A DNA stretch of 64,000 nucleotides from a bacterium (GTDB lineage: Bacteria > Desulfobacterota > Deferrisomatia > Deferrisomatales > BM512), in assembly GCA_004322275.1 (NCBI GenBank), contig SCTA01000021.1, positions 1 through 64,000 on the forward strand. The letters are read 5' to 3'. Shown piece after piece: positions 518 to 18,798 of this stretch. The notes below the pieces were generated by a model. The model saw only the letters and a program-made list of their open reading frames with translations, did not search any database and was not told where the DNA came from. Position numbers and translations under genes: made by a program. How positions within the stretch are numbered: the first letter of the stretch is position 1; each line of letters begins with the position of its first letter.

Positions 518-1189
518 GTGCCGGATGAAAGAAAGGCCGCTCAAGCGGCGAATGAAACTGCGAAAGGGCGCTTACAGGAAAGGCCGAAAGACAAGCCGAA
601 ATCCGCGTCCAAAACCCCTTCCCCCCGTCCCGCGTCGGTGATGGAGGCCGCCGAGTGCGGCTGCCACTTCGTCGCGGGGGCGCTCAGCGAGCACCTTTTG
701 CGCCTGAAAGTGCTCTTCGGCGACTCGGAGGAGCTTACGCCCCTGCTGGAATTCCTCGAAGACCTCACCCACTCGATCATTCTCATGCAGATGGTCACGG
801 CGGAGCACTCCTTTATCCACTCCCTCCTCTGCCACCACCCCGACGCCCTCTCCCTTCGCAAGGATGAATCCTTCATCGAGTGGGCGATGGGCCAGCCGCC
901 GGTGGTGCAGGCGTGCCTCGTCCATTCTGTGAACCCGGAGGACGCCGTCTGGGCAATCTCTCTTTACAAGGAGGAGATCGTGGGCAAGGGGCGCGACGAG
1001 GCCGCGAAGAAAGCTCTGGCGGGGCGCGAGGAGCGCCTGCGTGCGACCGCCGCTCCGCAGGGCGGCTCCGTTTCCGTCCCCTCCTCCTCCCGTTTCACGA
1101 GGGAGGATATCGCGAAGATGTCCGTCGCGGATTTCAAGAAGAACGAGTCTTCCATCAACGCCGCCCTGGCCTCGGGTCAGATAGGCTAA
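518..1189 (+). CDS. Phage scaffold-like protein
   Basis: This 223-residue protein directly precedes the major capsid gene, where tailed phages usually encode the head scaffold. The start chosen is GTG at 518, because GAGGAGG at 504-510 is an ideal ribosome binding site 7 bases upstream; the same frame opens at 473 without one. The N-terminus is Lys/Ala/Pro-rich and probably disordered. The middle holds a helical segment with a motif ending in QPPVVQACL then NPEDAVWAISLYK, a pattern I associate with scaffold proteins between portal and capsid in short-tailed phages. The basic C-terminus ends in a short helix, as scaffold capsid-binding tails do. The assignment rests mainly on position and composition. 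Its usual upstream partner, the portal gene, lies 16 kb away. Confidence 0.6.
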   Translation: MPDERKAAQAANETAKGRLQERPKDKPKSASKTPSPRPASVMEAAECGCHFVAGALSEHLLRLKVLFGDSEELTPLLEFLEDLTHSIILMQMVTAEHSFIHSLLCHHPDALSLRKDESFIEWAMGQPPVVQACLVHSVNPEDAVWAISLYKEEIVGKGRDEAAKKALAGREERLRATAAPQGGSVSVPSSSRFTREDIAKMSVADFKKNESSINAALASGQIG

Positions 1190-1213
1190 CAGGAAAAGGA
1201 GAGATTTAGACAA

Positions 1214-2275
1214 ATGGCTTACACCAAGACCCTTCAGAACTTCATCCCGGAGATATGGTCGAAGCAGCTCCTGAAGAACTGGGACGATTCCTTCGTGATG
1301 CGCAAACTCGTCAACACCCACTACGAGGGCGAGATCAAGTCCTTCGGCGACACCGTCCACGTCCCCTACCTCGGCAACATCACCGTGGCCGATTACGACA
1401 ACACCGCCGGAACCCCCGTCAGCTATCAGGACGTGGAGGATCTGACCGACACCCTCGCCATCGACCAGCGCAAGTACTGGGCCTTCAAGGTGGAGGACGT
1501 GGAGAAGGCGCAGGCTTCGGTGGAGGTGCGCGAGAACTACACCCGCCGCGCCGCGATAGCGATGAAGGACGAGATCGAGGAGTGGCTTCTCGGCCCGGCC
1601 TTCACCGGCGAGATAGGCCAGGTCGTCACCGCCCTTGCCGCCGTCGCCGCCCGCGCCAACACCACCGCTTACTCCCTCGGCGCTCTCGTAAAGCCCGCGA
1701 CCGCCAACGGCTTCGTCTACAAGTGCTCCACCGCAGGCACCTCGGGCGGCAGCGCTCCCGTCTTCCCCTCCATCGTCGGCGCTACCGTGACCGACGGCAC
1801 CGTTGTCTGGACCAACTTCGGCTACGTGGGCTTCGGAGCCCTCACCGCCGCCAATTTCTACAAGACCCTCGTGACGGCGAAGAAGGCCTTTCGCAAGTCC
1901 AACACCTGGATCGAGGGTGACATGTGGGCGGTGATTCCGCCGGAGGTCGAGGAACTCATCCTCACCTCCGAGGAGCTCATCCACGCCACCGACAGGGGCG
2001 ACAAGATCGTGGAGCAGGGGCTGATGGGCAAGCTCGCCGGGTTCAAGCTCTACTGCTCCAACAACGTCGCCGGGGCGGGCACCGGGGCCGACCCCTTCAT
2101 GATCCTCTGCGGCAGCAAGGAGACGATCACCTTCGCCGAACAGGTCACCGACACCGAGGCGCTGCGCCTCCCGAACGAATTCGCCACCGGCGTGCGGGGC
2201 CTCATGGTCTACGGCGGCAAGATCTTCGAGAGGAACAGGTACGCGGGCGTCGTCATCCGCGCCGAACTCGGCTAA
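1214..2275 (+). CDS. Phage major capsid protein with an inserted domain
   Basis: This 353-residue protein has the layout of HK97-fold coat proteins of the P22/gp5-like group. An N-terminal arm with NTHYEGEIKSFGDTVHVP is followed by a DQRKYWAFKVEDVEKAQ segment, a helix with Arg/Glu-rich residues, and a C-terminal part ending in a GLMVYGGKIF..R strand. Residues about 149-203 (YSLGALVKPATANGFVYKC through TDGTVVWTNFG) form a small beta-rich domain of a kind usually seen in tail fibres; here it interrupts the coat fold. The ribosome binding site AAAGGAGAG lies about 10 bases before ATG 1214. The reading frame is intact. Function as coat protein is well supported; the exact subfamily is not. Confidence 0.85.
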   Translation: MAYTKTLQNFIPEIWSKQLLKNWDDSFVMRKLVNTHYEGEIKSFGDTVHVPYLGNITVADYDNTAGTPVSYQDVEDLTDTLAIDQRKYWAFKVEDVEKAQASVEVRENYTRRAAIAMKDEIEEWLLGPAFTGEIGQVVTALAAVAARANTTAYSLGALVKPATANGFVYKCSTAGTSGGSAPVFPSIVGATVTDGTVVWTNFGYVGFGALTAANFYKTLVTAKKAFRKSNTWIEGDMWAVIPPEVEELILTSEELIHATDRGDKIVEQGLMGKLAGFKLYCSNNVAGAGTGADPFMILCGSKETITFAEQVTDTEALRLPNEFATGVRGLMVYGGKIFERNRYAGVVIRAELG

Positions 2276-2335
2276 CTCTCTTACCCGAAACAGGGGGAGG
2301 CAACGCGCCTCCCCCTCTTCCCCCCGGAGGGTAAA

Positions 2336-2896
2336 ATGCAGGGCCAGATTCATGAAAATCTGCACGGCAAAACCGTCACTCTCACCGGCGACGCCGAGCT
2401 TTTCGGCCCCTGCCGGGTGGCGAAGGTGACGACGAACGGTTTTTTGCTGACCGTCTCCACCCCGGCCCACCACGGAATTACCATCGACGGGTCGAAAAAC
2501 CCGGCTGACTGGGGGGCGAACGTCTTCTTCACCGTGCCGGTCTACCCGGAAAACGCCGCGCACATCCATATCGTGGAGGCACCCGACCCTTTCGCGCTTG
2601 AGTTCAGGGCGCGCGTCGAGGCAGCCAGCGGCGCGGACGGGCTGGCGGCTTTCGAGTGGCTGGTCGCCTTCCTGGGCGCCAACCCCCTCGCCGACCGGAC
2701 AGCGACGAAGGCGGCGTGGATAGCATGGGCGACGGAGGCGGGTAACAAAACCTACTTCGAGGCGGCCATCGATGCCGTCCTCACCGGGTTTTGCAACGGC
2801 TCCGGCCTCTGGGCCGATCTCGCGGGTTTCGTACTTTCCAGGACGCCCGAGGCGTGGGCCGGGTTGCCCGTTCCCACCGGGGAGGTGCTTGGCTGA
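2336..2896 (+). CDS. Phage structural protein of unknown function
   Basis: This 186-residue protein lies between the capsid and beta-helix genes and reads in the same direction. Its start follows GGAGG with good spacing, and its stop overlaps the next ATG by one base (TGATG). The first 75 residues look like a small beta-barrel. The rest is helical and rich in Trp and Ala, with a repeated pattern of aromatic residues. I do not recognise a family. Position suggests a head-completion or tail adaptor role. Confidence 0.55.
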   Translation: MQGQIHENLHGKTVTLTGDAELFGPCRVAKVTTNGFLLTVSTPAHHGITIDGSKNPADWGANVFFTVPVYPENAAHIHIVEAPDPFALEFRARVEAASGADGLAAFEWLVAFLGANPLADRTATKAAWIAWATEAGNKTYFEAAIDAVLTGFCNGSGLWADLAGFVLSRTPEAWAGLPVPTGEVLG

Positions 2897-3882
2897 TGGC
2901 CGTCGAAATCAAATTCATCTCCGCTACGGCTCCCGGCGGCGGCGACGGCTCTTCGGGTACTCCGTGGACCCTCGCGGAGGGAGTCGCGAAGGCGAAAGCC
3001 AACAGGCTCTTGAAGATACGGCCCGGAACCTACGCTCCGGCTTCCACCCTCGCCCTCGCGGTGGACACGACCGCCCCTTCCTCCTCAAGCCCCTGCGTCT
3101 TCGCCGCCGTGGACGGTTCGGACAACGCCGTCGCAAACCCCGCCGACATGATTCGGCTCGACTTCTCCGGCCTTTCAAGCGGCGTCGGCCTCAGCTACGG
3201 GGCGCTGGCCTATACCTTCTTTCACGGTCTCAAATTCGACAACGCTCCCTCTCACGGCTTTTCCTGCACCTCGGGAGCCTATAACTACAGCGCGGTAACC
3301 ATGTGCTCGGCAAGCGGGAACGGGGGAGCGGGTTTCAATCTCGCCAACGCGATAATCCTCATCGACTGCAAGGCGACGGACAACGCCGGGGGAGGAATCG
3401 TCAGAGGCAATTGGGTTTATACGGAGGGATGTTATACCTCCGGCAACACGGGCGCGGCGGGGCTTTCAGGTAACGGCGGGACCTTTGGCAATTGCATATT
3501 TCTTGACGGCGCTTCGGCTGCTGCCGGGATGCCTCTTATCGCCGTAAACAGTCTTATCGGGCCTTATAACAACGCAGGCGTTGCAAATACCGGAGCGGCG
3601 GGAGCTTACGCCTCCATCTTCGCGAACATGGCGACGGGGCTTTCTGCCGACGGGGTAATAGACCTCCACAACGATTTTTTCAACGTCACAAACCCGGTAG
3701 GGACCGACACCTTCCTTTCCGCCGGGAGACTGACCTCGGACCCGGCGATACAAAACACCATCGAAGCTCGCGCCGCGAACCTTCGGGACATTGCCTTCCC
3801 CCTCACCGGGATTAAGGCCCGCATAGGGGCGTGGCAGGGGCAGGAGTTCAAAAGCAGCGGCGTATTCGGAGGACTGAGATGA
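2896..3882 (+). CDS. Parallel beta-helix phage protein (tailspike or adhesin-like)
   Basis: This 328-residue protein starts MAVEIKFISATAPGGGDG and carries the motif GTPWTLAEGVAKAKA..IRPGTY. That is the typical entry to right-handed parallel beta-helix proteins of the pectate-lyase-like type, where cell-surface polysaccharide is the usual ligand or substrate. Residues about 60-270 are Gly/Asn/Ala-rich with regularly spaced hydrophobics, consistent with stacked rungs. I cannot point to catalytic residues. The start at 2896 is fixed by one-base overlap with the upstream stop. The likely role is a tailspike for receptor recognition, which is an inference. Confidence 0.6.
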   Translation: MAVEIKFISATAPGGGDGSSGTPWTLAEGVAKAKANRLLKIRPGTYAPASTLALAVDTTAPSSSSPCVFAAVDGSDNAVANPADMIRLDFSGLSSGVGLSYGALAYTFFHGLKFDNAPSHGFSCTSGAYNYSAVTMCSASGNGGAGFNLANAIILIDCKATDNAGGGIVRGNWVYTEGCYTSGNTGAAGLSGNGGTFGNCIFLDGASAAAGMPLIAVNSLIGPYNNAGVANTGAAGAYASIFANMATGLSADGVIDLHNDFFNVTNPVGTDTFLSAGRLTSDPAIQNTIEARAANLRDIAFPLTGIKARIGAWQGQEFKSSGVFGGLR

Positions 3883-5264
3883 TCTACCTTGGACTTTTCA
3901 CAGCCGGTAACAGCGTCTTTTACGCGGCGAACTTTCACAACGAGGCCGGGACGCTGGAGGACCCCGCGAGCCCGGAGGCGCAGATACGCGACCCTTCCGG
4001 GACGTGGAGCGCCCTGACCACGCCCGTAAAGCAGAACGGAAAGACGGGCCACTTCGGGGGAATCATCGACACTACGGGGTTCGCCGCCGGGCAGTATGCT
4101 ATACGGCTGGCGGGAACGGTGACTACGGGAAAGGCCCAGGCGGCGGAGTTCACCTTCACGGTGGACGCGGCGATAAAGAGTGTAGCAAACGACGTGGGCA
4201 TAACGCAGGCCGGGGCGGACAAGGTGTGGGGGAGCGCGGCGAGAAAGCTGACCGGGCCGGACAACATCACCTCGAACAACCTAAAGCTCACCCTCGACGG
4301 AAGCGGCAACGTCACCCTAAAGAGCGGCACGCACACCGGCGCGACTGTGCCGAACGTCACGACAACAACCACGGCAACCAACGTAGTGAACCTCACAGGA
4401 GAAATAGAGACGGGCTTCACATACGCCGAAGCCATCCGGCAGATAGCCCTCCAAACAATGCTCACGCACAGAGGCGCGATGCTCGTCCCCTCGTTTGCCG
4501 AGTGGCCCACTGTGACAGCCACGTACTCCCAGATTCTCGGGGTCGGAGCCTCCATCGAGGTTTGGGCGGCTGACCCCTCGGCGTTTTACCCAGGCGTGGA
4601 CACTGCGGATGACGTGCTTGTCGGCACACTCACAGGCTCCGGGTGGGTGCAAAATCCCGCTTGGCCTGTCGGCGGCAAGGACATGGTGCTCTACTTGAGG
4701 CAAACCGCAGGTGCAGCCACCATGAACGCAGGGGTGCTTACAATCACTGTGACTTCGTTGGCCGGAGTCTCGTTCACGCATAAGGTGAAGCTGCCCGGAA
4801 GAGGTGCGGGCACGGCCTCCACGTTCATGGGCTGGGACAGGGACGGGAATGTTTTAGACAACTTCGGTCTCTCCACCGTGGCTACTTACGGCTACTTCGA
4901 GACCAACTCCGACGGCCGGATAACGGAGTACGCGCCGGGCCTTTCCCCCGCCGAGCAGGTAAGCGCGCTGGGCCTCACCCAGGCGCGGGCGGCCAGACTC
5001 GACAATCTCGACGCGGCGGTTTCCTCCCGCTCCGTCTTCGACCCGGAAAGCGACCTCCTCGACTCCAACGGCGCGTCGGGGTGGACGTGGAAGCAGGCGT
5101 TCCGGCTGGTCTTCGCCTTCCTTCTCGGCGAGAGGAGCGGCGGAGGAAGAGCCGGGAACAAGTCCTTCAAGGTTCCGGGGGGCATAAAGACGAGGGTGGT
5201 CATGGCCACCGACGCCAACGGAAACAGCGCCGCCTCCCACACCTTCGATCACTCGGATTCATAA
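3879..5264 (+). CDS. Phage tail/fibre-like multidomain protein
   Basis: This 461-residue protein starts at ATG 3879, inside an ATGA overlap with the previous stop. Residues 1-95 look like an immunoglobulin-type beta-sandwich. A linker follows with ITQAGADKVWGSAARKLTG, a phrase common in phage tail proteins. A beta-rich central domain spans about 185-325, and a helical C-terminal region ends with RVVMATDANGNS. The central part uses codons such as TTG, TGT and TTT more often than its neighbours, which could mean domain exchange. No enzymatic motif is visible. Confidence 0.6.
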   Translation: MIYLGLFTAGNSVFYAANFHNEAGTLEDPASPEAQIRDPSGTWSALTTPVKQNGKTGHFGGIIDTTGFAAGQYAIRLAGTVTTGKAQAAEFTFTVDAAIKSVANDVGITQAGADKVWGSAARKLTGPDNITSNNLKLTLDGSGNVTLKSGTHTGATVPNVTTTTTATNVVNLTGEIETGFTYAEAIRQIALQTMLTHRGAMLVPSFAEWPTVTATYSQILGVGASIEVWAADPSAFYPGVDTADDVLVGTLTGSGWVQNPAWPVGGKDMVLYLRQTAGAATMNAGVLTITVTSLAGVSFTHKVKLPGRGAGTASTFMGWDRDGNVLDNFGLSTVATYGYFETNSDGRITEYAPGLSPAEQVSALGLTQARAARLDNLDAAVSSRSVFDPESDLLDSNGASGWTWKQAFRLVFAFLLGERSGGGRAGNKSFKVPGGIKTRVVMATDANGNSAASHTFDHSDS

Positions 5265-5498
5265 ATGTCATTCGATACCTTTCCTCACCTCTCCTTCCCG
5301 GGCCGGGTCTTTCCCATAGAGATCTGGCAGGGAAGGGAGCAAAAACCCGAGAAGGACGGAACCTGGGCGGAGCGCCTCGACTCGCGGAGCCTCGCGACCG
5401 CCCGCGCCCTGCCGGAACTGCGCGCAATCGCCCTTAACACCCGCCTCTCGGCGCGGGCAAAAACGAAACCCGGCTACCATGCGGAGAAACACAAATGA
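5265..5498 (+). CDS. Small phage protein, unknown
   Basis: The gene encodes 77 residues. The ATG follows the upstream TAA directly, and the 3' end overlaps the next start (ATGA at 5495-5498). The protein is Arg/Lys-rich with a helical segment about residues 33-60. Gene packing and direction support it being real and co-transcribed with the tail genes. I recognise no family. Confidence 0.5.
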   Translation: MSFDTFPHLSFPGRVFPIEIWQGREQKPEKDGTWAERLDSRSLATARALPELRAIALNTRLSARAKTKPGYHAEKHK

Positions 5499-5821
5499 GC
5501 GAAGTAATCTACGTCGGACACAACGCGGAAATATCCTTCGTCGTCCGGGACTCCTCGGGAGAGGAGCTGAACCTGACAACCCTCGGCGTGACGAGGGTTG
5601 TCTTCCACCTCGCCGGGGTCACCGTCGATTCCCTGGAGCGCCCCGGGTCCTTCGATTTCGTCACGGGAGGAGCGCTGGGAAGAATAGACATCGACCTCAC
5701 CGGCATAGCCTTCCCCTCGGGGAGCTTCGGGGCGAGGCTGGTAATCTACTACCCCGCAAAGGAGTTCGGAGTCGTCATCGCCGACGGCTATCCCGTAAAC
5801 GTCGGCGCGGCTATCCGCTGA
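5495..5821 (+). CDS. Phage tail/baseplate-type small beta protein
   Basis: This is a 108-residue, almost all-beta protein with the pattern GHNAEISFVVRDSSG followed by DIDLTGIAFPSGSFGARLVIY. It resembles the beta-sandwich fibre-base or adaptor domains that follow tail genes in many phages. It overlaps the previous gene by four bases and precedes the connector gene by 15 bases, where AAAGGAGAG provides the ribosome site for that next gene. The specific role is unknown. Confidence 0.5.
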   Translation: MSEVIYVGHNAEISFVVRDSSGEELNLTTLGVTRVVFHLAGVTVDSLERPGSFDFVTGGALGRIDIDLTGIAFPSGSFGARLVIYYPAKEFGVVIADGYPVNVGAAIR

Positions 5822-5836
5822 ATAAAGGAGAGAGGC

Positions 5837-6622
5837 ATGACGCTGGAAAAAGGGCTGTTCGCCACCGACCTCGCGGGAAGGGTCCTCACCGACCTTTCCG
5901 ACCCCAAACAGAGGCGGTGGTCCACGGATCAGATAACCGGCTTTTTCAACGAAGGGATGCGGGAGTTGGCGAGAGAGGGAATCTTGCGCCGCACAGACCT
6001 TCACGTGACGGCGGCGGGAAAAGCTCTCTACGAGACCTTCGCGGAGTGCGCCCTTATCCTCCGGGTGGAGCACGAGGGAAGAGAGCTTCCCGCGAAGACC
6101 GCGGAAGAGGCGCTCCGGCTCCTCGGCCCGAGCTGGCGCGCCAGAACCGGAATCCCCCGGTGCTACGTGCCGGGAAAGGGAGGTATTCTTCTCGCCCCCG
6201 CTCCCGCCCAGGACGGCGAACCGTTGCTCTTCGAGGGCGCTCCCGCCATCGAGGAGGCCGAGGGAGGCAAAATCTCCGGCGACGGCTACACCGGGGCGCT
6301 CCGGGACGGTTCGGTCGAGCATTTCCTTCCGGGAGACGGGTTTTGCCTCAACGAGACGACGGCAAAGGGGGTGCTCCGCATAGAGTACGGTTTCTATCCC
6401 CGCCCCTCCGAATCGGGCGATTCCATTCCCTCGCGCTACGCCGACGGCCTGGCTGCCTACGCCCTCTTTCGCTGCCTGACCCTCTCCGGCGTTGAGGAGG
6501 AGGCCGAGAGGGGCGCGTTCGCCTTTGCAAGGTGGAGAGACCTGAAAGAGCGGCTGAAGAACGAGGGCTCCGCGGAGTTCCTCTCCTCTCAGAAGCTCTT
6601 TTCTCCGGTGGAGGCGCTCTGA
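5837..6622 (+). CDS. Head-tail connector/adaptor-like phage protein
   Basis: This 261-residue protein begins with a segment typical of phage adaptor proteins: RVLTDLSDPKQRRWSTDQ then FFNEGMRELAREG, meaning a tryptophan-serine turn and a helix ending in Arg. A central beta region and a helical C-terminus (ARWRDLKERLKNE) follow. In short-tailed phages such proteins (DUF6682-like) join portal and tail tube or nozzle. The next gene, a long beta-rich nozzle-like protein, fits this pairing. AAAGGAGAG precedes the ATG. The family call is from pattern memory only. Confidence 0.55.
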   Translation: MTLEKGLFATDLAGRVLTDLSDPKQRRWSTDQITGFFNEGMRELAREGILRRTDLHVTAAGKALYETFAECALILRVEHEGRELPAKTAEEALRLLGPSWRARTGIPRCYVPGKGGILLAPAPAQDGEPLLFEGAPAIEEAEGGKISGDGYTGALRDGSVEHFLPGDGFCLNETTAKGVLRIEYGFYPRPSESGDSIPSRYADGLAAYALFRCLTLSGVEEEAERGAFAFARWRDLKERLKNEGSAEFLSSQKLFSPVEAL

Positions 6623-8478
6623 TGGCGAAGGGCTACTGCACCGAGCTCGACCCCCGGGTTATGCCTCCGGGGCTCTTCCCGGAGTTCACCCAGCTCACCC
6701 TTCGCGGCGGAGTGCTTCGCCCGAGGCCCTCCGACGAGGCTTACACCCCCGCGCCGGGCTCCCTCGAAGAGTGGAAACTCGGGAAGCTCGGGCAAAGCCG
6801 GGTGGCGGAGGTCTACAGCTCCGAGGCTGCGAAGAGCTTTTACGTCCACACTCCGAAGGGGGGCGGAACGCCGAGAATCTACGACCACGAAAGCGCGGCG
6901 GAAGCGGACCTTGTCCTGCCCACTCCCGGCGACGCCCCCGCCCTCGCGGAAGGCCACTCCTCGGTTGGCTTTACCGCTACGGGTTACGGCCCCGAGGCTG
7001 ACGTCACCGGGAGCGTTCCGGCGGGGGAAAGGGCGGTCTACGCGAAGACCTGGGTTGGAACCGTCGCCGGAGCCCGCTCGGGTTTCTCCCCGGTGTTCAA
7101 TTTCGAGAACACCGGCTATATGGCAATTTACATCAGGATGGCTCCCGGACTCTGGCTTCCCCCCGTCGCGGGCGACATCCTGACGAACTCGACCAAAACC
7201 GACACGGCGATAGTCAGGGATATCGCCCTTCTCAACTACTCTATGACGGAGCGCTTCTTTTGCATTCTCATAAAAGACAGCGAAAAGACCGCGAATCAGC
7301 TCTGGGCGACAAACGACATCGTGACCTGGCCGGGCGGACCGTTCAACCAGGGCTCGTTGAAACGCGACGAAACCCCCTCCGCCGTCACGCCCACGCTGGC
7401 TAACGGGACCGCTTTTCCGGCCGGGGTCGACGGGTGGGCGCTGAACCGCATGGAAGGCTCGACGGGAATCTGGCGCGAGACGGGGCTGACCTCCACGGAA
7501 ACGGAGCTTTCCGACTCGGATTATTTCCCTTACGAGGACGTAGGCCTCACAAAACTCTTCAAAGCATGGCCCGGCCCCCTGGACAACAACTATCTGCCCG
7601 AGACCCTGGCCGGACCTCTTTTAGCCGCCCAGACCCTCGCGGTCCACAAGGGGTGTCTCTTCGTGGCCCAGGGGTCGAAGATACGTTACTCGGAGGCGGA
7701 ACAGCCGCGCTATTTCCGGGAATGGGCGGCTCTGGACGCGGGCGGCGAGGTCCTCGCCATCATAAGCAGGGACGAGGTGGCGGAGGTCTACACGCCCACG
7801 GCGGTGAAGTACCTCACCGGCTCCGCCCCCTACTTCGAGCTTCGGGAGACGGGAATCAACGAGGGGCCGGTTTCCGGCGACTCCATCGTCCAGACGGACA
7901 TCGGCACCTTCGCTCTCTTCGACGACGGCCTCTACCTCGTAAGGAACTCGAACCGGGAGAACGTCACCTCCGGCGTAAACACCCCCTTTATCGAAGGGCT
8001 TTCGGATCGGGGTTCGGCGGTGGGGGGCGCTTCCAGGGGTGTATACTACCTCGTTGACGCGGACGGCTCCTGTCTCGCCTTCGACTGGGAGGAGGAGGAA
8101 TGGTTCCGGCGGGAGTTCCCGGCGCGGCCGGAGGGTTTTTTGTACCTCGACGATCCCCGCTCTCTGGTCGCGAAACTTCCGGGCTCGCCGGATTACTTCC
8201 GCAAGGTGGCCTCGGGAACCGGGAGCGTCTTATGGTCGGCGCTCTGGCCCGAGAAGGGCGACGGGAAGCTCCGGCCCGCCCCCTCGGCGGCCGTCATCGA
8301 TTCCGAAGGCGAAATGACCTTCACCTTTCTGGTGGACGGGGAAGTGGAGTCGGTCATGGCCGCCGGCGGCGCGGAGGAGATGCCGCTGCCCCTCGCGCGG
8401 GGACGCTACGTCTCTTTCATGCTCAGCGGCGAGGGGAGCGGCGTCGATACCGCGATTAGAAAAGCGGAGCTGCGCTGA
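6622..8478 (+). CDS. Tail nozzle/beta-propeller-like phage protein
   Basis: This 618-residue beta-rich protein starts within TGATG at the end of the adaptor gene. It opens with LDPRVMPPGLFPEFTQLTLRGG. The middle includes LAVHKGCLFVAQGSKIRYSEA and LAIISRDEVAEVYTP, which are repeated short strands typical of nozzle/tail-tube B proteins of podovirus-like phages. Residues about 170-310 are slightly less GC-rich and may be an inserted domain. The C-terminus is beta-rich. No enzymatic residues are apparent. With no tape-measure gene seen anywhere, this points to a short-tailed particle. Confidence 0.6.
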   Translation: MAKGYCTELDPRVMPPGLFPEFTQLTLRGGVLRPRPSDEAYTPAPGSLEEWKLGKLGQSRVAEVYSSEAAKSFYVHTPKGGGTPRIYDHESAAEADLVLPTPGDAPALAEGHSSVGFTATGYGPEADVTGSVPAGERAVYAKTWVGTVAGARSGFSPVFNFENTGYMAIYIRMAPGLWLPPVAGDILTNSTKTDTAIVRDIALLNYSMTERFFCILIKDSEKTANQLWATNDIVTWPGGPFNQGSLKRDETPSAVTPTLANGTAFPAGVDGWALNRMEGSTGIWRETGLTSTETELSDSDYFPYEDVGLTKLFKAWPGPLDNNYLPETLAGPLLAAQTLAVHKGCLFVAQGSKIRYSEAEQPRYFREWAALDAGGEVLAIISRDEVAEVYTPTAVKYLTGSAPYFELRETGINEGPVSGDSIVQTDIGTFALFDDGLYLVRNSNRENVTSGVNTPFIEGLSDRGSAVGGASRGVYYLVDADGSCLAFDWEEEEWFRREFPARPEGFLYLDDPRSLVAKLPGSPDYFRKVASGTGSVLWSALWPEKGDGKLRPAPSAAVIDSEGEMTFTFLVDGEVESVMAAGGAEEMPLPLARGRYVSFMLSGEGSGVDTAIRKAELR

Positions 8479-8675
8479 TGAAGCCTTTTTTGCCCCCCTC
8501 GACCCCTGCGGCGGCCCGCGACGAACTTAAAAACCTTCACGGGAAGCTCAAAAGGTTCGGTTCCGTCGCGCAACTGCCCGAAAACGCCTCCCCGGCGGAG
8601 GTACGGGAAAAAGTCAACGAACTAACCGCCCTCCTTTGCGAGATAACGAAGGCGGGAACAGTGAGGAGGATTTAG
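8478..8675 (+). CDS. Small coiled-coil phage protein
   Basis: The gene encodes 65 residues. ATG at 8478 overlaps the upstream stop by one base. Residues 12-60 form a predicted helix with heptad-like Leu spacing (ELKNLHGKLKRFG, EVREKVNELTALL). It is charged and probably acts as an assembly or chaperone-like partner of the neighbouring virion proteins. The family is unknown. Confidence 0.5.
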   Translation: MKPFLPPSTPAAARDELKNLHGKLKRFGSVAQLPENASPAEVREKVNELTALLCEITKAGTVRRI

Positions 8676-8677
8676 CG

Positions 8678-9094
8678 ATGAGTTTCTGGTCGGATCCCGC
8701 AGGCTCCACGCAGGCGGCGGTATTGAGAGTCCAGTCACGCGCGGAAAAGGGGCTGGACAAGATCTCCGGCTTAACCCGCGGCGAAGCGCTGGTGAGTTTT
8801 GAAAACCCGGCAGAGGAGGAACTGGCGGCGCTCCTTCGCCTCTCGCCCTCGCGGCAGAACCTCTCCCTCCGGCGCTCCCGCGAACTGGCCGAGGCGCGGC
8901 TCCGGGCCTCGGGCCTCAGCGGCGCGGCGGCGGCGACGGCGGGGGCGCGGCTTTACAACCGGGGGTTTCTCGGCTCGTCCCTCACAGCCGTTGACACCGC
9001 CGCGAAACTGTCGCGAATACGCCACGATCTGAAACAGGGCGCGGCGGGCACAGGCGTCCGCGACGATTTTTCGGCCTTCATGGGCGGAGTATAG
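8678..9094 (+). CDS. Phage internal/structural protein, unknown
   Basis: This 138-residue protein has its start at ATG 8678, preceded by GAGGA at 8663-8669. It is strongly helical and Ala/Arg/Leu-rich, with SLRRSRELAEARLRASG and AAATAGARLYNRG. This composition is like internal virion or ejection proteins of short-tailed phages. GGAGG lies before the following gene, so the two are translated together. No recognised domain. Confidence 0.5.
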   Translation: MSFWSDPAGSTQAAVLRVQSRAEKGLDKISGLTRGEALVSFENPAEEELAALLRLSPSRQNLSLRRSRELAEARLRASGLSGAAAATAGARLYNRGFLGSSLTAVDTAAKLSRIRHDLKQGAAGTGVRDDFSAFMGGV

Positions 9095-9102
9095 GAGGAA
9101 AA

Positions 9103-9624
9103 ATGACAGACGGCTATGCGGCAAACCTCACCTTCGGAACCGATCTTCTGTCGGGGCTCGGCGAAGTGCGCGACAACAACGACGCAAGAAAAACCAAAAA
9201 GGCTTACGAGAAGCGGGCGACCTACATCGGCGGGCTCCTCTCTTCGATTAAGCCGCCGCTCCTGAAGAATCTCGCCCCCGGCGGCTTCCTCCGGGAGGTT
9301 CTGGCGGGAGACAGGATGGAGCGCGCCGCTCTCGATTCCGCCGATGCCCTCGTCAAGGCCCGCAGGGCTTCGTCGAGGACCAGCGGCAGTTCCCGCGCCG
9401 GACTCGTAGGCGCAAGGATCGGCGAGATTCTCGGCCGGGAAGGCGGAAGGGGCGACGCGGAGATGAAGGCCGACTCGATGCTGGCCGACGGCGCGCTCTC
9501 CACCCTCGGCGGCGCGGTGACCTCCGTCCGCACCAATCCTTTTTACGACTACGCGAACGGAGTCCGTACGTTCGGAAACGACCTTCCCGCGATGATCATC
9601 GAGTGGAGCAAAAAGGATGGCTAA
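9103..9624 (+). CDS. Phage internal/ejection-like protein, unknown
   Basis: This 173-residue helical protein contains Gly/Ser/Ala-rich stretches (RRASSRTSGSSRAGLVGARI) and a hydrophobic mid-region. It sits between a helical structural protein and the lysis cassette, where podovirus-like phages encode ejection proteins. The last eight bases overlap the start of the next gene. Function is inferred from position and composition only. Confidence 0.5.
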   Translation: MTDGYAANLTFGTDLLSGLGEVRDNNDARKTKKAYEKRATYIGGLLSSIKPPLLKNLAPGGFLREVLAGDRMERAALDSADALVKARRASSRTSGSSRAGLVGARIGEILGREGGRGDAEMKADSMLADGALSTLGGAVTSVRTNPFYDYANGVRTFGNDLPAMIIEWSKKDG

Positions 9625-9868: not shown

Positions 9869-10223
9869 TCTTTCCGCGCACTTTTCCCGCGAGGAGTTCG
9901 CCTGCCCCTGCGGCTGCGGACTTTGCGAGCCTAAAAAGGAACTTGTCGACCTCCTCGAAGAGATGAGAAAGACCCTCGGCGCGCCGGTGAGGATAAATTC
10001 CGGCCTTCGGTGCGAAGCGCACAATCAGGCCGTCGGGGGGAAGGATTCGAGCGCGCATCTTTGCGGCGAGGCGGCCGACGTAAGCGCCGAAGGGGGCGAA
10101 AAGCTCTTTAGCGCCGCGCGGGCGGGGTTTCTGGCGGGAGCAAAAAGAATCGGCATCGGCAAAAACTTCGTCCACGTAGACGTCTCCGGCGCGCTACCCT
10201 CCCCGCGCCTCTGGACCTACTGA
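9861..10223 (+). CDS. Endolysin, peptidase M15 family
   Basis: This 120-residue zinc peptidase resembles the D-Ala-D-Ala or L-Ala-D-Glu type M15 endolysins. The motif SAHLCGEAADV supplies H66 and D73, and FVHVDV supplies H105; these are the three expected zinc ligands. The N-terminal FSREEFACPCGCG segment is typical of the family. There is no signal peptide, so it needs the adjacent holin-like protein for export. The length is that of a single catalytic domain with no wall-binding domain. Confidence 0.85.
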   Translation: MGNLSAHFSREEFACPCGCGLCEPKKELVDLLEEMRKTLGAPVRINSGLRCEAHNQAVGGKDSSAHLCGEAADVSAEGGEKLFSAARAGFLAGAKRIGIGKNFVHVDVSGALPSPRLWTY

Positions 10224-10450: not shown

Positions 10451-10526
10451 CCCTCTGCTTCTTCCTTTGTCCCATAGGAATGTGGTAGTATTTTCTAAAT
10501 GAAATGTTGTCCTGAAAGTTTTGAAG

Positions 10527-10859
10527 ATGGCTGAAGGCGATACTGTTATAGAATTCAAAAAGCCGAGGCGATTCAATCCTTTCCGGCGGCGTGGAGGCGC
10601 GGGTTCTTTCGGGCTCGGCAAACGGGGGGTCGTGGGCTTTTTCCTGGCGGGGCTTTTGTTGTGCCTCGTCCTCACTGCGGCCCTTAACCCCGGCCTTATG
10701 TACGGGGCGTTTTTCGCTCCCGTAGTGGTTCTCTTGTCGCTCCTCTTCGCTCTCGGAGCCAAAAAAATCTTCCTGAAGATGGAGGTTCATCTCCTCCACA
10801 GGGAGCTTTCGAGGCGGGCCGGGCGCGAGGATAAAGGCGGGCGAGACCTTTTGCACTAG
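10527..10859 (+). CDS. Small two-TM membrane protein, unknown
   Basis: This 110-residue protein has a basic N-terminus (KKPRRFNPFRRR) and two hydrophobic segments, about residues 33-50 and 58-78. The C-terminus is charged and cytoplasmic. ATG 10527 is preferred over the in-frame TTG six bases earlier. It lies 18 bases ahead of the transpeptidase gene and likely shares its transcript, so a cell-envelope role is possible. No family recognised. Confidence 0.5.
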   Translation: MAEGDTVIEFKKPRRFNPFRRRGGAGSFGLGKRGVVGFFLAGLLLCLVLTAALNPGLMYGAFFAPVVVLLSLLFALGAKKIFLKMEVHLLHRELSRRAGREDKGGRDLLH

Positions 10860-10877
10860 AGCAGCAGATTGTGAGCG

Positions 10878-12152
10878 ATGCATAATTTTTTCAGCAGCCT
10901 CAAGGTAGAATCCGAACATAAAAAACCGATGCCCCGGAAGAGGAAGATTCTCGTCTTCTCCTCCTCTGTGCTCTTCGCCGTCGCGCTCGCCATAATCGCC
11001 CTTCGCCCCGGCATGGCCACGGGCGGCGGCGCCTTCTCCTCCCTTGGCCTCGCCTCCTCGGCGGAGGAGGAAAAGGTCGAGCGGTTCACCCCCGACATGA
11101 GCGTCCCCGAGCCCATCCTGGGCCCCGGCGGAAAATACATCCAGATAGTCAACGGCAACAAGTACACCTTCACCCTCGACCCGGAGCTTCAGGCCGAGGC
11201 CGAAGCCGTGCTCGCCAAACACAAGGTCCCCTACGGCGCGATAGTCGCCATAGAGCCCGCCACCGGCAGGGTTCTGGCCTTCGCCGAGCATTCACAGCGC
11301 GACAAAACGATAACCGGTCTCGCCCAGCGCGCCACCTACCCCGCCGCCAGCCTTATAAAGGTGGTCACCGCCGCCGCCGCCCTCGAAACCGGCAAGGTCT
11401 GCGCCGACACCGTCTTCACCTACGAAGGCAGCCCCTATGTGCTGACCAAGCGCAAGATACTGCCCGAAAACAGAAAGCGCGAGCGCAACGTAACGACGCT
11501 GGGGCAGGCCCTGGGCAAATCCAACAACATCGTTTTCGGCAAGCTAGGCGTCTACTGCATCGGCCCCGAGAAGATGCAGCAGACCACCACGGATTTCGGC
11601 TTCAACCGCGAGATACCCTTCGACTTTCCGCTCCAGCCCTCCTCCTCCGTCGTCCCCGTCGAGACCTTCGATCTCGCCCAGACCACGGCGGGTTTCATCG
11701 GCACCAAGATAAGCCCCGTCCACGCCGCCCTCATCGCCGCCGCCATCTCCAACAACGGCGTGATGATGCGCCCCTGGATGATAGAATCGGTAACGGACGC
11801 CACCGGCAAGGTAATCTACGAAGGAACCTCCGAAACCCTGCTCACCGCCTGCGAACCCAAAATCGCCGAAGAGCTTACCGGGATAATGCGCAACACCGTC
11901 ACGGAAGGCACGTCGAGCAAGATTTTCAAACGCCACGCGAAAAAACTCTTTGAAAACGTGGCCGTTTCGGGTAAAACCGGCAGCCTTACCGGCGACGACC
12001 CGCCGGGCAAATACGAATGGTTCATCGGCTTCGCCCCTGAAAAGAACCCGCAGATAGCCGTCGCGGGGATGGTGGTGAACCAGGGCAACAGGGGCCAGAT
12101 ACACGGCGCCTACGCCGCGATGACCGTATTCAAAAAACATTTCGGGATGTGA
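10878..12152 (+). CDS. Penicillin-binding protein transpeptidase
   Basis: This 424-residue D,D-transpeptidase has one N-terminal membrane anchor (about residues 24-43) and the three active-site motifs of serine transpeptidases: SLIK (SxxK), SNN (SxN) and SGKTGS (KTG). It lacks the long N-terminal pedestal of FtsI/PBP2, so it is a compact class B-like enzyme acting on peptidoglycan in the periplasm. The ribosome site is weak, and ATG 10929 is an alternative start that keeps the anchor. It looks like a normal host gene and separates the two phage-type blocks. Confidence 0.85.
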   Translation: MHNFFSSLKVESEHKKPMPRKRKILVFSSSVLFAVALAIIALRPGMATGGGAFSSLGLASSAEEEKVERFTPDMSVPEPILGPGGKYIQIVNGNKYTFTLDPELQAEAEAVLAKHKVPYGAIVAIEPATGRVLAFAEHSQRDKTITGLAQRATYPAASLIKVVTAAAALETGKVCADTVFTYEGSPYVLTKRKILPENRKRERNVTTLGQALGKSNNIVFGKLGVYCIGPEKMQQTTTDFGFNREIPFDFPLQPSSSVVPVETFDLAQTTAGFIGTKISPVHAALIAAAISNNGVMMRPWMIESVTDATGKVIYEGTSETLLTACEPKIAEELTGIMRNTVTEGTSSKIFKRHAKKLFENVAVSGKTGSLTGDDPPGKYEWFIGFAPEKNPQIAVAGMVVNQGNRGQIHGAYAAMTVFKKHFGM

Positions 12153-12165
12153 GAAAGGGCTATAG

Positions 12166-12549
12166 ATGACCGAAGAGCAGGAAGTCCATTACGACATAGA
12201 GGAAGCCGCGAAAGAAGTCGCCTCGCGCACCGGGCAGAAGATAGAGACGGTCGAGGACATCCTCGAAGCCGAATTTCTCTTCAACGCCGCCCTCGGCTTT
12301 TACGAGATACCCGACGACAAAGAAGGCGAAGAGTTCATGGAAGAGCTTCTCGTCCTTCGCCAGAAACACAGCGACATCCTTCCCCCCGCCGACGCCAACA
12401 TCGAAGAGTACGAAGATATCGAAGACCGCCTCGTCACCTTCATCACCCGGCTCACCGGCGCAGAGCCCACCGCCATCGAAGAAGTACTAGACGAGCATAT
12501 ACTCTATCTCGAAGAGAAGGGGATACTCGAACCGGTCGAAGAGGATTAG
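12166..12549 (+). CDS. Acidic protein, unknown
   Basis: This 127-residue, very acidic (Glu/Asp-rich), helical cytoplasmic protein sits 13 bases after the transpeptidase gene and probably shares its mRNA. The sequence has no signal peptide or metal motif. It does not resemble a family I know. Confidence 0.55.
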   Translation: MTEEQEVHYDIEEAAKEVASRTGQKIETVEDILEAEFLFNAALGFYEIPDDKEGEEFMEELLVLRQKHSDILPPADANIEEYEDIEDRLVTFITRLTGAEPTAIEEVLDEHILYLEEKGILEPVEED

Positions 12550-12794: not shown

Positions 12795-13532
12795 TTAAAT
12801 ATCTCGCTCCCATAGTTCCCAGTTAAGAGGGGAGGAATAGCTATCTGATTTTTTAAATCCATTCCTTGATACAATATTGCGACCACTGTCTGTGGCTATA
12901 ATTGTAAATACTTTTTTTACGTTGCTATTATCTTTTTTTATTGTTGCAATTTTTGATTTTATTTTACGGATTAAGCTCGCCCCGGCATGGGCGCAACACT
13001 TGCTTCTGCATTTATTTGTATATGTCATTAGATCCATGATAAATAGTTCATTAAGCAAAGGATCATCAAAAGAGATTATTGCGGACTCTTTTATCTGGTA
13101 GTCTTGTATGGCACCACTTTTTAATAAATCAACAACAGGTTGCGTAAGAGGCAATAGACTGAAATAGCCGCAAGAAATGCATTCATTGCTACCGGCTACT
13201 AAGCATTCAGCAACATAGCAAACATCCTTATTTTTTCTGTGAATATTATTCATCGTTTCTACTGAAAATGCATGCCCTTTGCCCAAATAGTGTTCAGCTA
13301 TTTTATGGACATTATTAAAATCAGTAGTATTTGCTCTTCTGACTACAATTTTATTGGTAGCGCAAGGCTGTATGAAATCCTTGCAAAATAGTAAATTTCT
13401 AAAAAATTTTAAAACTTTAAGTAATTGGTCGCGTAGAGACGGGATTATTAAAATTAAAACACCAGAGAAACCCCATAACATAAAATTTATAATTTTCTCA
13501 GTGGTTATTGCCACAAAATTTATGAATAACAA
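12795..13532 (-). CDS. AT-rich GNAT-like acetyltransferase with N-terminal membrane segment
   Basis: This 245-residue protein has one hydrophobic segment (about residues 15-33). The soluble part resembles the GNAT N-acetyltransferase fold: VVRRANTTDFNNVHKIAEHYL as the first strand and helix, CGYFSLLPL and LFIMDLM as central strands, then an AGASLIRKIKSKI helix and VFTIIATDSGRNIVSRNGF near the end. The start is TTG 13532, supported by GAGGA seven bases upstream. A 120-bp sample (12901-13020) is about 33% GC, against well over 60% for neighbours, and the codons are AT-rich, so it is probably acquired. Its substrate is unknown. Repeats border it on both sides. Confidence 0.55.
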   Translation of the reverse strand: MLFINFVAITTEKIINFMLWGFSGVLILIIPSLRDQLLKVLKFFRNLLFCKDFIQPCATNKIVVRRANTTDFNNVHKIAEHYLGKGHAFSVETMNNIHRKNKDVCYVAECLVAGSNECISCGYFSLLPLTQPVVDLLKSGAIQDYQIKESAIISFDDPLLNELFIMDLMTYTNKCRSKCCAHAGASLIRKIKSKIATIKKDNSNVKKVFTIIATDSGRNIVSRNGFKKSDSYSSPLNWELWERDI

Positions 13533-13772: not shown

Positions 13773-13964
13773 GCCCGTAGGTGACGCAGGGAGCGGAGGC
13801 GGAAAGGGCGGCGGGGGGGGTCTTAGCGAGCTTTTGCGAGCGGGTGCCCCCTCACGCCCCCGCCGTAGCGACCGGTCGCTCGCAGAGCGAGCGGCTCCTC
13901 CCGGGCCGATTTCTTGGGTACTTCTTTATAAAAGAAGTACCAAGGGCGCGGGGCAAAGCCCCGC
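13773..13964 (+). repeat. Dispersed element A, copy 2
   Basis: Same body as copy 1. The terminal hairpins are GGTACTTCTTT / AAAGAAGTACC (13917-13927, 13931-13941) and GCGGGGC / GCCCCGC (13948-13954, 13958-13964). Compared with copy 1 the second stem changes a T-A pair to C-G on both arms. Positions 13965-14100 hold further short repeats with a TTTCGCTTCGCTCAA-like sequence and a CTGGATTCC palindrome at 14037-14063. No gene is present from 13533 to 14224. Confidence 0.85.
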
Positions 13965-14755: not shown

Positions 14756-14800
14756 GGGTTTTGAAAGGCCGTAGCGGGCCTTCGCCTTTTACGGCTATTT

Positions 14801-14832: not shown

Positions 14833-14860
14833 CCTCCGGTTTGCCCGCCAGCTCTCCCGC

Positions 14861-14948
14861 CCTTCCCTCCTCTGACCCCGAAAAATCCCAACCCCCTGTA
14901 ATCACTGCATAAAAATTTGCGCTTTTTAGGCGGGGTGAACCCGCCGGA
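14861..14948 (+). promoter_or_regulatory. Shared upstream element of the two phage-type blocks, copy 2
   Basis: Identical to 333-360 over 28 bases (14861-14888) and alignable without gaps to 14948 (66 of 88 identical). It lies between the beta-barrel terminator and the terminase block, about 300 bases ahead of the first terminase gene, so it is placed to drive that block. No gene is visible in 14756-15245 apart from this and element B. Confidence 0.7.
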
Positions 14949-15078
14949 AGAGGAGACTTGGTCTCGTGGCCGGTTGCAAAAACCGGCTGCAAACCGCCTC
15001 CCCGCGGTCCCTCGCGCCACTCTTTCTCAAAGACAGGCTCAAATGCCGACATGATGAGGGCGGACGGGCGCCGGGAGG

Positions 15079-15216
15079 CGGTTCCTCTTTAAAACTGTTG
15101 CGAGCCTCGTTTTCAGTGTCGCGTGCTCGCTCAAGGACTCGCCGTAGCGCTGCTACTGTCTCGTCCTTTCCCTGCGCGGCTCCTTGAAACCGAGGCTTCT
15201 CACAACGTTTTAACGA
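15079..15216 (+). repeat. Dispersed element B, copy 2 (long imperfect palindrome)
   Basis: The outer arms pair: TAAAACTGTTGCGAG plus CCTCGTTTTCA at the left matches the reverse complement of TGAAACCGAGGCTTCTC plus ACAACGTTTTA at the right. The spacer holds the CTCGCCGTAG..CTACTG core shared with the other copies. It lies in the leader of the terminase block. Confidence 0.6.
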
Positions 15217-15245
15217 CCTTTATCCACTGCTGGAGACCGACCAAA

Positions 15246-15512
15246 TTGGCGAAGCAAAACGACTCGGAAAGCGCCCCTTCGACCGACCGGGAAGCCGGGT
15301 CAAAGGAGCGGGTGCGCGAGGATTTCTGGTGGGTTTACGAGAAGCTGGGCGGGCGCGAGGCGCTCCACGGCTGGGCGGAGGAAAACATGAAGGAGTTCTT
15401 CAAGACCTTCTTCGCCCTCTTCCAGAAGGATTCCCCGCAGGGTGATTCGCCGGAGCTTCTTGTCCGCGCCCTTCGGGCAGTAGCCGGGGAAGAGGATGGC
15501 CCCGGTGAGTAA
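15246..15512 (+). CDS. Terminase small subunit-like protein
   Basis: The start is a TTG at 15246, with GGAGA ten bases before it, giving 88 residues. The core REDFWWVYEKLGGREALHGW then MKEFFKTFFALF is a pattern typically found directly upstream of large terminase genes. It overlaps the large-subunit gene by 17 bases. It likely contributes to DNA recognition or regulation of packaging. It is shorter than classical small terminases and has no visible helix-turn-helix, so the DNA-binding role is not shown. Confidence 0.6.
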   Translation: MAKQNDSESAPSTDREAGSKERVREDFWWVYEKLGGREALHGWAEENMKEFFKTFFALFQKDSPQGDSPELLVRALRAVAGEEDGPGE

Positions 15513-16890
15513 GGATTACGAAGAACTCCTCGGCAGGGCGCTGACGAAGGTCCAGAGCCCTCTGGAGTTCGCCGGGCGCGTGCTTTCGGCGAAGCCGACG
15601 GAGCAGCAGCGGGAGGTTCTTCTTGCCCTTGAGAGGGGCGAGCGGCGGATAGCGATACGCTCGGGTCACGGCGTGGGCAAGTCGGCGCTCCTTTCGTGGG
15701 TGCTTCTCTGGTGGCTCTCGGTGAAGCCCGGCGCTGTCATCCCCTGCACCGCGCCTACCGGCCATCAGCTTGAAGATATCCTCTGGGGGGAGGTTTCGCG
15801 CTGGCATCGGAAGATGAAGGAGCCGTTCAAGAGCATGATTTCGCTTGCAAAAGGCTCCGCCCGCCACCGCTTTTCGCCGGAGAGCTGGTTCGCCGTCGCG
15901 CGGACGGCGCGGCGCGAGAGCCCGGAAGCCCTTCAGGGCTTTCACGGCAAAAACCTCGCCTTCCTCATCGACGAGGCTTCGGGCATCCCGGAGGAGGTCT
16001 TCGAGGTGGCGGAGGGAGCCCTTTCGACCCCCGGCGCTCTGGTTGTGATGGCGGGAAACCCCACCCGCCTCGAAGGGGCCTTTTACCGCGCCTTCCACGA
16101 GGAGCGAAGCCACTTCTCCACCTTTCATTTCCCCTCTTTCGCCTCGCCGCTCGTCGATCCCTCCTACGGTACGAGAATGGCCGGGCGCTACGGGGAGGAT
16201 TCCGACGTCTACCGGGTGCGCGTCCTCGGGGAGTTCCCGAAGGCGGAGCCCGACACCCTCATCTCTCTTTCCCTCATCGAGCCCGCCCTTGAGCGGGAGA
16301 TTGAGCCCGCTACGGGCGATCTTACCGTCTTCGGGGTGGACGTGGCGCGTTTCGGCGACGACGAGACGGTGATCCTGCGCCGCCGGGGTGGACTTGTGGG
16401 GCAGATAGACGCCTACCGCGGGCTCGACACGATGGCGGTTGCGGGGAAGGTCGCCTGTTTCGCCAGGGCGGAGCGCCCGGCCCTCATCTTCGTGGACGTG
16501 GTTGGGCTCGGCGCGGGAGTGGCGGACAGGCTGCGGGAGCTTGGGTTCGCCGTCTACCCCGTCAGCGCGGGGAACCGCGCGGGGGACTCGGCCCGCTTCG
16601 ACGACCTTCGCAGCGAGCTTTGGTGGCGCGTCCGCGAGTGGCTGGAGAGCGGCTCAGCCTCGCTGCCGCCGGACGGCGAACTGGTTTCGCAGCTTTCTTC
16701 TATCAAGTACGGCGTCACCTCGCAGGGAAGAATACGGGTGGAATCGAAGCAGGAGCGCAAAAAGCGCGGCCTCTCCTCCCCCGACAGGGGCGACGCCCTG
16801 ATGATGACCTTCGCCTCGCAGGCGCTTCCCCCCTTGAACCTCGAAAGGGGGCGGGCGCACAGACCTTTTGACAGGGAGCTTGGATTCTGA
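15496..16890 (+). CDS. terL: Phage terminase large subunit
   Basis: This 464-residue packaging motor ATPase and nuclease has Walker A SGHGVGKS (56-63), Walker B LAFLIDE (154-160), the coupling motif VVMAGNPT (about 183-190) and an RNase H-like nuclease domain with GVDVARFGDDE (D282, D288/D289) and a later DRGDALMM acidic motif. All parts are present and in frame, so it is potentially active. Its stop overlaps the portal start (TGATG). In most tailed phages this gene would be followed by portal, scaffold and capsid; here scaffold and capsid lie 16 kb upstream. Confidence 0.92.
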   Translation: MAPVSKDYEELLGRALTKVQSPLEFAGRVLSAKPTEQQREVLLALERGERRIAIRSGHGVGKSALLSWVLLWWLSVKPGAVIPCTAPTGHQLEDILWGEVSRWHRKMKEPFKSMISLAKGSARHRFSPESWFAVARTARRESPEALQGFHGKNLAFLIDEASGIPEEVFEVAEGALSTPGALVVMAGNPTRLEGAFYRAFHEERSHFSTFHFPSFASPLVDPSYGTRMAGRYGEDSDVYRVRVLGEFPKAEPDTLISLSLIEPALEREIEPATGDLTVFGVDVARFGDDETVILRRRGGLVGQIDAYRGLDTMAVAGKVACFARAERPALIFVDVVGLGAGVADRLRELGFAVYPVSAGNRAGDSARFDDLRSELWWRVREWLESGSASLPPDGELVSQLSSIKYGVTSQGRIRVESKQERKKRGLSSPDRGDALMMTFASQALPPLNLERGRAHRPFDRELGF

Positions 16891-18548
16891 TGAAGAAAGA
16901 CACTTCTGAACTCGCGGGTTACGTCCTTGAACGGTTCGAGCGCTACAAAGAGGGGAGAAAGCCCTTCGAGGAGCGCTGGGAGGAGGCCTACTACAACACC
17001 ATCGGTGAATACTCCCCTTCGGTGCAGGGCCAGTGGCGCGGAAGGGAGGCGACCGGCTCGAAGCTCTTCGTCCGCCTCACCCGCCACAAGGTCAGGACCG
17101 CCTCGCGCCACCTCGAACCGGCCCTCCGGCAGCTACGCTTCGACCTGCGCGGCGAGGCGGGCGACGAAAGGGCGCTTTCGGAGCTCAAGGCCGAGATAGA
17201 GCGCATCCTCTCCTTCGCCCGGGCGGCGGACCACCTCGTGGATATGGCGTGGGAGGGCGCGTGGTCCGGGACGGGGATACTGCGCGTCCCGGTGCTGGCC
17301 GAGCGCGCCGAGACCGTCTTCGAGATCGATTCCGCGACGAAGCTCTGGACGGCGAGCGCCGAAAAGCGCCCCTACCCCGCCGTCAGAAACGTCCCCCTCT
17401 GGAACTTCTACCCCGACCCCGACTCGGGAAACGTGGAGGAGGGCGAGGGGGTAATCGAGCTTCACCGCCTCTATCCCCACCAGCTCCGGGCGATGGTCGG
17501 ACGCGCCGGTTGGGACTTTGCCGCCGTGGAGGCTCTGGTTAAAGAGGGTGACACCTCCTCCGAGGAGCGCTGGGAATCTTCGCTCCGTAGCGCCGTGGGC
17601 GGAAGCTTCGGAGCCGACTCTAAAAAGCTCCGCGTCCTCGAATACTGGGGCGTCGTCCCCGCGAGTCTGCTGAAAAAGGCGGGGATAGAACTCCCGGAGG
17701 GCGCGGGCGAGGACGTGGAGGCGCTCGTTATCGCCTCGAACGGCCGCGTCCTCAAGTGCTCGCCAAACCCGTGGGTCCCCGCGATGAGGCCCTACCTTCG
17801 CTTTCGCTGGGAGCCGGTTCCCCACCAGTTCTGGGGGGTAGGCGTGGCGGAAAACATCCGCGACTCGCAGAAAATGATAAACGGCGCGACGCGCCTTCTC
17901 GTTGACAACAAGGCGCTCGCGGGCAACTGCATGTTCGAGATAGACGCCGAGGCGCTCGTGCCCGGCCAGGACCTTTCGACGGTCTACCCCGGCAAGAAGT
18001 GGGTTCTTCGCCCCGGCGCGGCGGGTCCGGCGGTGCGGCCCGTCCCCGTCCCGGACGTGAGCCCCGTCCTCATCGAGATGATAAACCTCTTTACCGCCTT
18101 CGCCGACGAGACCAGCGGCGTGGCTATTGGGCTCGACAGCGCCGACGCCCTCGGCTCGCAGACCGCCACCGGCCTTTCCATAGCCCAGTCCGCCGCGCTC
18201 GAAGGGTACCGCTCGATAATCCGGCGCATCGACGACGAGGTTATCGAGCCGATGATCGAGCGCATCTACCGCTGGCTGATGGAGTACGGCGACACCGCCC
18301 TCCCCAAGGCCCCGGCGCGGGTCCGCGCCGTCTCCCAGACGGCGACGCAGGCAAAGGAGCTTCGCTCCCAGAGGCTGATGGAGTTCATAAACCTCCTCGG
18401 CGGCGGGTTCGGCGGTCTTCCGGCGAACCCCTCCGAAGAGACGCTAGCGGGAAAGATAGACCTCGGCAGGGTGCTTGAAGAGCTGGCCGACACCCTCGAA
18501 GTGAGAGAGATAATCAAGACGAAGGGAGGGGCCGATGGACACCGTTGA
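16890..18548 (+). CDS. Phage portal protein
   Basis: This 552-residue protein starts inside TGATG. Its layout fits portal proteins of short-tailed phages: an N-terminal helical region, a beta-rich wing with VRNVPLWNFYPDPDSG, a stem and clip region with FRWEPVPHQFWGVGVAENI, and a C-terminal crown-like helical part with TATGLSIAQSAALEGYRSI and EPMIERIYRWLMEYG. It forms the dodecameric entry ring for DNA. It overlaps the next small gene by 14 bases. No truncation is visible. Confidence 0.85.
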   Translation: MKKDTSELAGYVLERFERYKEGRKPFEERWEEAYYNTIGEYSPSVQGQWRGREATGSKLFVRLTRHKVRTASRHLEPALRQLRFDLRGEAGDERALSELKAEIERILSFARAADHLVDMAWEGAWSGTGILRVPVLAERAETVFEIDSATKLWTASAEKRPYPAVRNVPLWNFYPDPDSGNVEEGEGVIELHRLYPHQLRAMVGRAGWDFAAVEALVKEGDTSSEERWESSLRSAVGGSFGADSKKLRVLEYWGVVPASLLKKAGIELPEGAGEDVEALVIASNGRVLKCSPNPWVPAMRPYLRFRWEPVPHQFWGVGVAENIRDSQKMINGATRLLVDNKALAGNCMFEIDAEALVPGQDLSTVYPGKKWVLRPGAAGPAVRPVPVPDVSPVLIEMINLFTAFADETSGVAIGLDSADALGSQTATGLSIAQSAALEGYRSIIRRIDDEVIEPMIERIYRWLMEYGDTALPKAPARVRAVSQTATQAKELRSQRLMEFINLLGGGFGGLPANPSEETLAGKIDLGRVLEELADTLEVREIIKTKGGADGHR

Positions 18549-18798
18549 GTCCGCGAAACTCGACAAATTGCTGCTGAAGGCGGGAGTCGGCAGGGAGGGG
18601 AACGCGGCGGTGGACGCCCTGTGCTCCCTCATGAAGTCCCGCGCGGGCGAGATAACGCAGAAGATGCTGGTCGAGACCGACCCGATGAACCTGGCGAGGA
18701 TGCAGGGCGCGGCCCGGGAACTCCTGCGCTGGGCGGATTACCCGGCGGAGCTGGCGGAGAAGATGAAGTGGCTGAAAGTTGAGGATCAGGAGAGTTAA
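18535..18798 (+). CDS. Small phage head protein, unknown
   Basis: This 87-residue helical protein overlaps the portal gene by 14 bases and is the last gene of the block. Its stop overlaps the stop of the convergent hydrolase gene (shared TTAA, 18795-18798). Short helical proteins in this position are common between portal and scaffold. The function is unknown. Confidence 0.55.
   Translation: MDTVESAKLDKLLLKAGVGREGNAAVDALCSLMKSRAGEITQKMLVETDPMNLARMQGAARELLRWADYPAELAEKMKWLKVEDQES

Follow-up and report, generated by a model that had tools for sequence, protein, structure and literature searches.

Intact Short-Tailed Phage Particle and Packaging Genes, Retained across a Deltaproteobacterial Family at Separate Loci with a Shared Promoter-Like Element, Most Likely Represent a Gene Transfer Agent

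Gene transfer agents (GTAs) have been described in several bacterial lineages. FpGTA of Faecalibacterium, a podovirus-like GTA-like element widespread in its lineage, lies in two separate operons with a holin and an endolysin, has a TerS without an obvious DNA-binding domain, and has been shown experimentally to form particles containing packaged DNA (PMC12946183). RcGTA of Rhodobacter and CcGTA of Caulobacter have dispersed, co-regulated loci under activator-controlled promoters, a short TerS, and vertical inheritance (PMC9638019, PMC11150451), and Dd1 of Desulfovibrio desulfuricans is a deltaproteobacterial GTA with a predicted short TerS (PMC6854486). Here, we present two blocks of short-tailed phage genes that are kept intact across a family of deltaproteobacteria as separate units carrying one shared DNA signal, and that most likely serve to move the bacterium's own DNA between cells, although no particle, packaged DNA, or transfer has been observed.

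Gene content

The window analyzed is the first 64 kb of an 80.6-kb contig (C21) of a 2.88-Mb, 45-contig genome, referred to as G000. Genes were assigned by searches against Pfam and PHROGs, with BLASTP and PDB searches for selected proteins. An earlier note described a phage late module split into two intact, permuted blocks around host genes, and this observation is confirmed. All block A and block B genes are on the forward strand. Block B (473 to 10223) runs in frame from scaffold to endolysin and contains a scaffold gene (473 to 1189, with an internal GTG start possible at about 521; phrog_13678, E 1e-16), the major capsid gene (1214 to 2275; phrog_267, 7e-53; PDB 8e16 major capsid protein, E 9e-23), four virion-associated genes (2336 to 2896, 2893 to 3882, 3876 to 5264, and 5495 to 5821), and a head-tail/tail structural gene (5837 to 6622; phrog_399, 6e-11). 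These are followed by a gene for a 619-aa protein (6619 to 8478), probably a tail tube/nozzle as inferred from position, two small genes (8678 to 9094 and 9103 to 9624), a weak holin/antiholin candidate (9617 to 9868; phrog_10340, E 0.009), and an M15 peptidase endolysin gene (9861 to 10223; PF08291, 2e-20; phrog_894, 3e-31). Tail fibers were not recognized, no tape measure was found, and a structure model of the 619-aa protein was too poor for fold searches (pLDDT 38). Block A (15246 to 18798) contains a small open reading frame (ORF) of 88 aa, assigned as terS by position only (15246 to 15512), terL (15496 to 16890; phrog_2, 8e-46), in which a Walker A motif, GHGVGKSA, and acidic nuclease-domain motifs were read by eye, the portal gene (16890 to 18548; phrog_332, 7e-44; Pfam SU10_portal), and a small conserved gene (18535 to 18798).

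Between the blocks lie host genes on the forward strand (10521 to 12549) for a 112-aa protein, a transpeptidase (Pfam, 1e-41), and a conserved 127-aa protein, followed by an AT-rich ORF (12795 to 13532, reverse strand; about 33% GC locally against a window mean of 60%), which has no Pfam family above the cutoff and is probably a recent acquisition, and an OMP beta-barrel gene. The gene that the earlier note called GNAT-like has no GNAT match and only a sub-threshold NIP7 pre-PUA hit. The GC and GC3 of both blocks are like those of neighboring host genes. The remainder of the window, read by eye, is host metabolism (his, glutamate synthase, nuo, and a sigma factor), with no integrase, repressor, or replication gene recognized in it.

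The window begins at base 1 of the contig within a dispersed repeat of about 190 bp (1 to 189), so the left neighbor of block B is not visible. Other copies lie at 13775 to 13963, 19683 to 19820 (reverse strand), and 25550 to 25738, and 34 copies were counted in the genome by the 25-bp core, several of them at contig ends, which is a possible cause of assembly breaks and rearrangements. Both blocks lie in intervals bounded by this repeat, and their relative order in G000 is therefore not certain, but separation by host genes is seen independently on single contigs of two relatives (G002 and G004). The arrangement that the earlier note called permuted is better read as two separate operons, each with its own copy of a promoter-like element.

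Conservation and inheritance

Five genomes of the family, representing three genera, were compared (G000 and the relatives G001 to G004), several of which are fragmented metagenome-assembled genomes (MAGs) in which some linkages are cut by contig ends. Three of the relatives match the named MAG contigs PKTT01000060 and PKTU01000123 (Deltaproteobacteria bacterium BM512 and BM525) and SRXB01000206 by length and match position. Capsid, terL, and portal are single copy and intact, without internal stops, in 5 of 5 genomes at 62 to 82% identity. Among 99 genomes searched, terL matched the five family genomes at 68 to 76% and otherwise only a few distant relatives, while the portal matched the family at 62 to 70% and the next best matches among 395 genomes of the phylum were 25 to 32%. 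Identities to G000 in G001, G002, G004, and G003, respectively, are 82, 78, 78, and 66% for capsid, 76, 68, 68, and 65% for terL, and 70, 62, 63, and 62% for portal, and follow those of the host protein MurA (80, 70, and 68%; not found in G003). Between G002 and G004, dN/dS is 0.052 for terL, 0.047 for portal, 0.013 for capsid, 0.09 for scaffold, and 0.19 for terS, against 0.04 to 0.06 for MurA, HisG, TatD, ThiF, PilZ, and a response regulator, with overlapping dS ranges; dS values above 1 are near saturation, so the ratios are approximate. The scaffold and small genes evolve fast. The TerL proteins of the family form one clade (support, 99/99) apart from phages, and capsid, portal, terL, and a host gene give the same unrooted topology for the five taxa.

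Partial homologs of the four virion-associated genes are present at the same positions in G001, G003, and G004. The structural gene at 5837 to 6622 is conserved in G003 and G004, where the 619-aa protein is 42 to 44% identical and the two small genes have diverged homologs. The holin candidate is 65% identical in G004, and the endolysin was not found at the end of block B in G003. The small gene that ends block A has a homolog after the portal gene in all four relatives. In G002 and G004, portal and the small gene are followed by host genes (TatD-like, ThiF-like, PilZ-like, and a response regulator on the opposite strand) and then, about 4 kb on, by block B. Block B lies next to that response regulator in G001 to G004, which include all three genera, so the two-locus state is old. 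The 112-aa, transpeptidase, and 127-aa genes follow block B in the same order in G000 and G004. In G000, the response regulator lies on another contig (C23) without block B, and the present order in G000 is inferred to be a later, probably repeat-mediated change. The neighborhoods of block A and of a third locus, described below, share an alpha/beta hydrolase and agmatinase-like, sigma-factor, and oxidoreductase genes between G000 and G002 or G004, though gene order differs.

Shared upstream element

A 28-bp string occurs exactly twice in the G000 genome, just upstream of blocks A and B. Alignment of nine upstream regions from the five genomes gives an element of about 100 bp, consisting of a TGACCC box, TAAC, an AATCACT core, a T-run, a second TGACCC box, and a −10-like A-ACT. 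Upstream of block B (335 to 432, forward strand), the boxes are TGACCCC (345 to 351) and TGACCCC (408 to 414), with an AT-rich core between them and a −10-like TAGACT at 425 to 430. Upstream of block A (14863 to 14961, forward strand), they are TGACCCC (14873 to 14879) and TGAACCC (14936 to 14942), with a −10-like AGACT at 14954 to 14958. The boxes are 63 bp apart in both G000 copies. An IHF-like site between the boxes was tested, and the best mismatches averaged 1.76 against 2.02 in mononucleotide shuffles (5% as low), too weak to claim.

A sequence-only model built from these nine regions found eight further copies (E 2e-10 to 1e-3 per genome, with rough calibration). Two of these, at E 1e-8 and 5e-6, precede a homologous gene for a proline-rich protein in G002 and G004 (locus C), and an iterated 17-sequence model then found the element before the G000 homolog of that gene (C21:67220 to 67310; 4e-5). 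In G000, the element also precedes genes for a 137-aa and a secreted 136-aa protein, for an NlpC/P60-like protein (phrog_329 minor tail, E 2e-4) found only in G000, and for two 72-aa membrane proteins; a structure model of the 137-aa protein was too poor for fold searches (pLDDT 43). The extracted region L062 (2717 to 3419; G000 contig C40) is an apparent degenerate copy of the NlpC-like locus in which the element and the start of the gene are kept, followed by two paralogous 72-aa membrane proteins. In G001, the element precedes what looks like a partly deleted version of the first of these loci. Copies in G003 (contig C16) and G004 (contig C102) precede unassigned genes, although in the G003 region (L065, 2717 to 3272) a small proline-rich ORF that may be a diverged locus C gene follows the element. 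A leader hairpin such as TCACTCTTTGGAGTGA lies a few tens of bases after the element at accessory loci (extracted regions L060, L061, L062, L064, and L067), raising the possibility of leader RNA control. The element was found only in this family, with no strong hit in seven genomes of other families of the order or in related phage loci. Activation by a common regulator is inferred, and none was found.

Interpretation and relation to known systems

The TerS-position protein is 74 to 96 aa in the family, with no DNA-binding domain or helix-turn-helix (HTH) detected, the state reported for known GTAs (PMC11841831, PMC6854486), whereas most ORFs read upstream of terL in related phages are longer (about 120 to 300 aa), many with HTH-type sequence by eye. 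A TerS profile gave no hit against related phage ORFs, and PDB hits for this protein (calmodulin and designed proteins) look like helical composition matches. Together with lineage-wide retention under selection, phylogeny matching the host, dispersed loci with one element, and lysis genes, this makes a domesticated, vertically inherited, podovirus-derived GTA the best explanation, and we consider it likely. The domesticated particle of the GTA kind suggested by the earlier note is thus supported, with the carriage of host DNA between cells remaining an inference. We infer that a single activator, perhaps with DNA bending between the two boxes, switches on loci A, B, and C and a few accessory loci, probably in a subset of cells; that TerL and TerS load host DNA without a specific start site until the head is full; that holin and endolysin release the particles; and that recipients take up the DNA.

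Sequence cannot tell delivery from killing, and a domesticated particle that packages host DNA but acts as a bacteriocin-like killer is possible but unlikely. PBSX-type particles also appear to keep capsid, terminase, and lysis genes, and an NlpC/P60-like protein is in the putative regulon, but no large contractile tail module or obvious killing gene was seen, and the short TerS-position protein is as reported for known GTAs. The main alternative in the earlier note, a prophage rearranged through flanking repeats, is very doubtful. The repeat-bounded intervals and the position of the response regulator on another contig than block B in G000 are in its favor, but it explains at most the present order in this one genome, given that the units are already separated by host genes in G002 and G004, that block B has the same neighbor in G001 to G004, that purifying selection is strong over host-level divergence, and that each block has its own copy of the element. 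No integrase or other prophage genes were recognized beside the blocks in the relatives, where flanks were read by eye as far as the contigs reach and without a separate search for att sites. A helper system for another mobile element, such as a satellite, or a capsid kept for a role other than gene transfer is similarly improbable; no replication genes were recognized nearby, but terminase, portal, and capsid are retained under selection in all five genomes, with no linked mobile element seen.

Portal, capsid, and scaffold are closest to those of HMO-2011-type podophages (Roseobacter CRP-345 and Puniceispirillum HMO-2011), with the scaffold matching the gene upstream of the coat gene in CRP-345 (BLASTP, 2e-8), and the order terS-terL-portal-scaffold-coat-tail in these phages matches block A followed by block B. 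A short-tailed particle is therefore likely. Identity is only about 30%, however, and those are phages of roughly 53 to 55 kb with a 711-aa portal and further large proteins not found here. TerL resembles a broader phage group, and the capsid query found only one weak partial locus in viral contigs. The closest published parallel is FpGTA, from a different phylum, in which operon I carries terminase through capsid and operon II carries tail and lysis genes, whereas here the split falls between portal and scaffold. RcGTA and CcGTA, which appear to be siphovirus-like, have one main cluster, whereas the core itself is split in this podovirus-like system. An independent domestication, fixed across a deltaproteobacterial family, is the probable reading, and it would add to the known GTAs one in which a promoter-like element of about 100 bp can reveal, from DNA alone, scattered loci that homology searches miss, giving a way to detect whole GTA regulons computationally.
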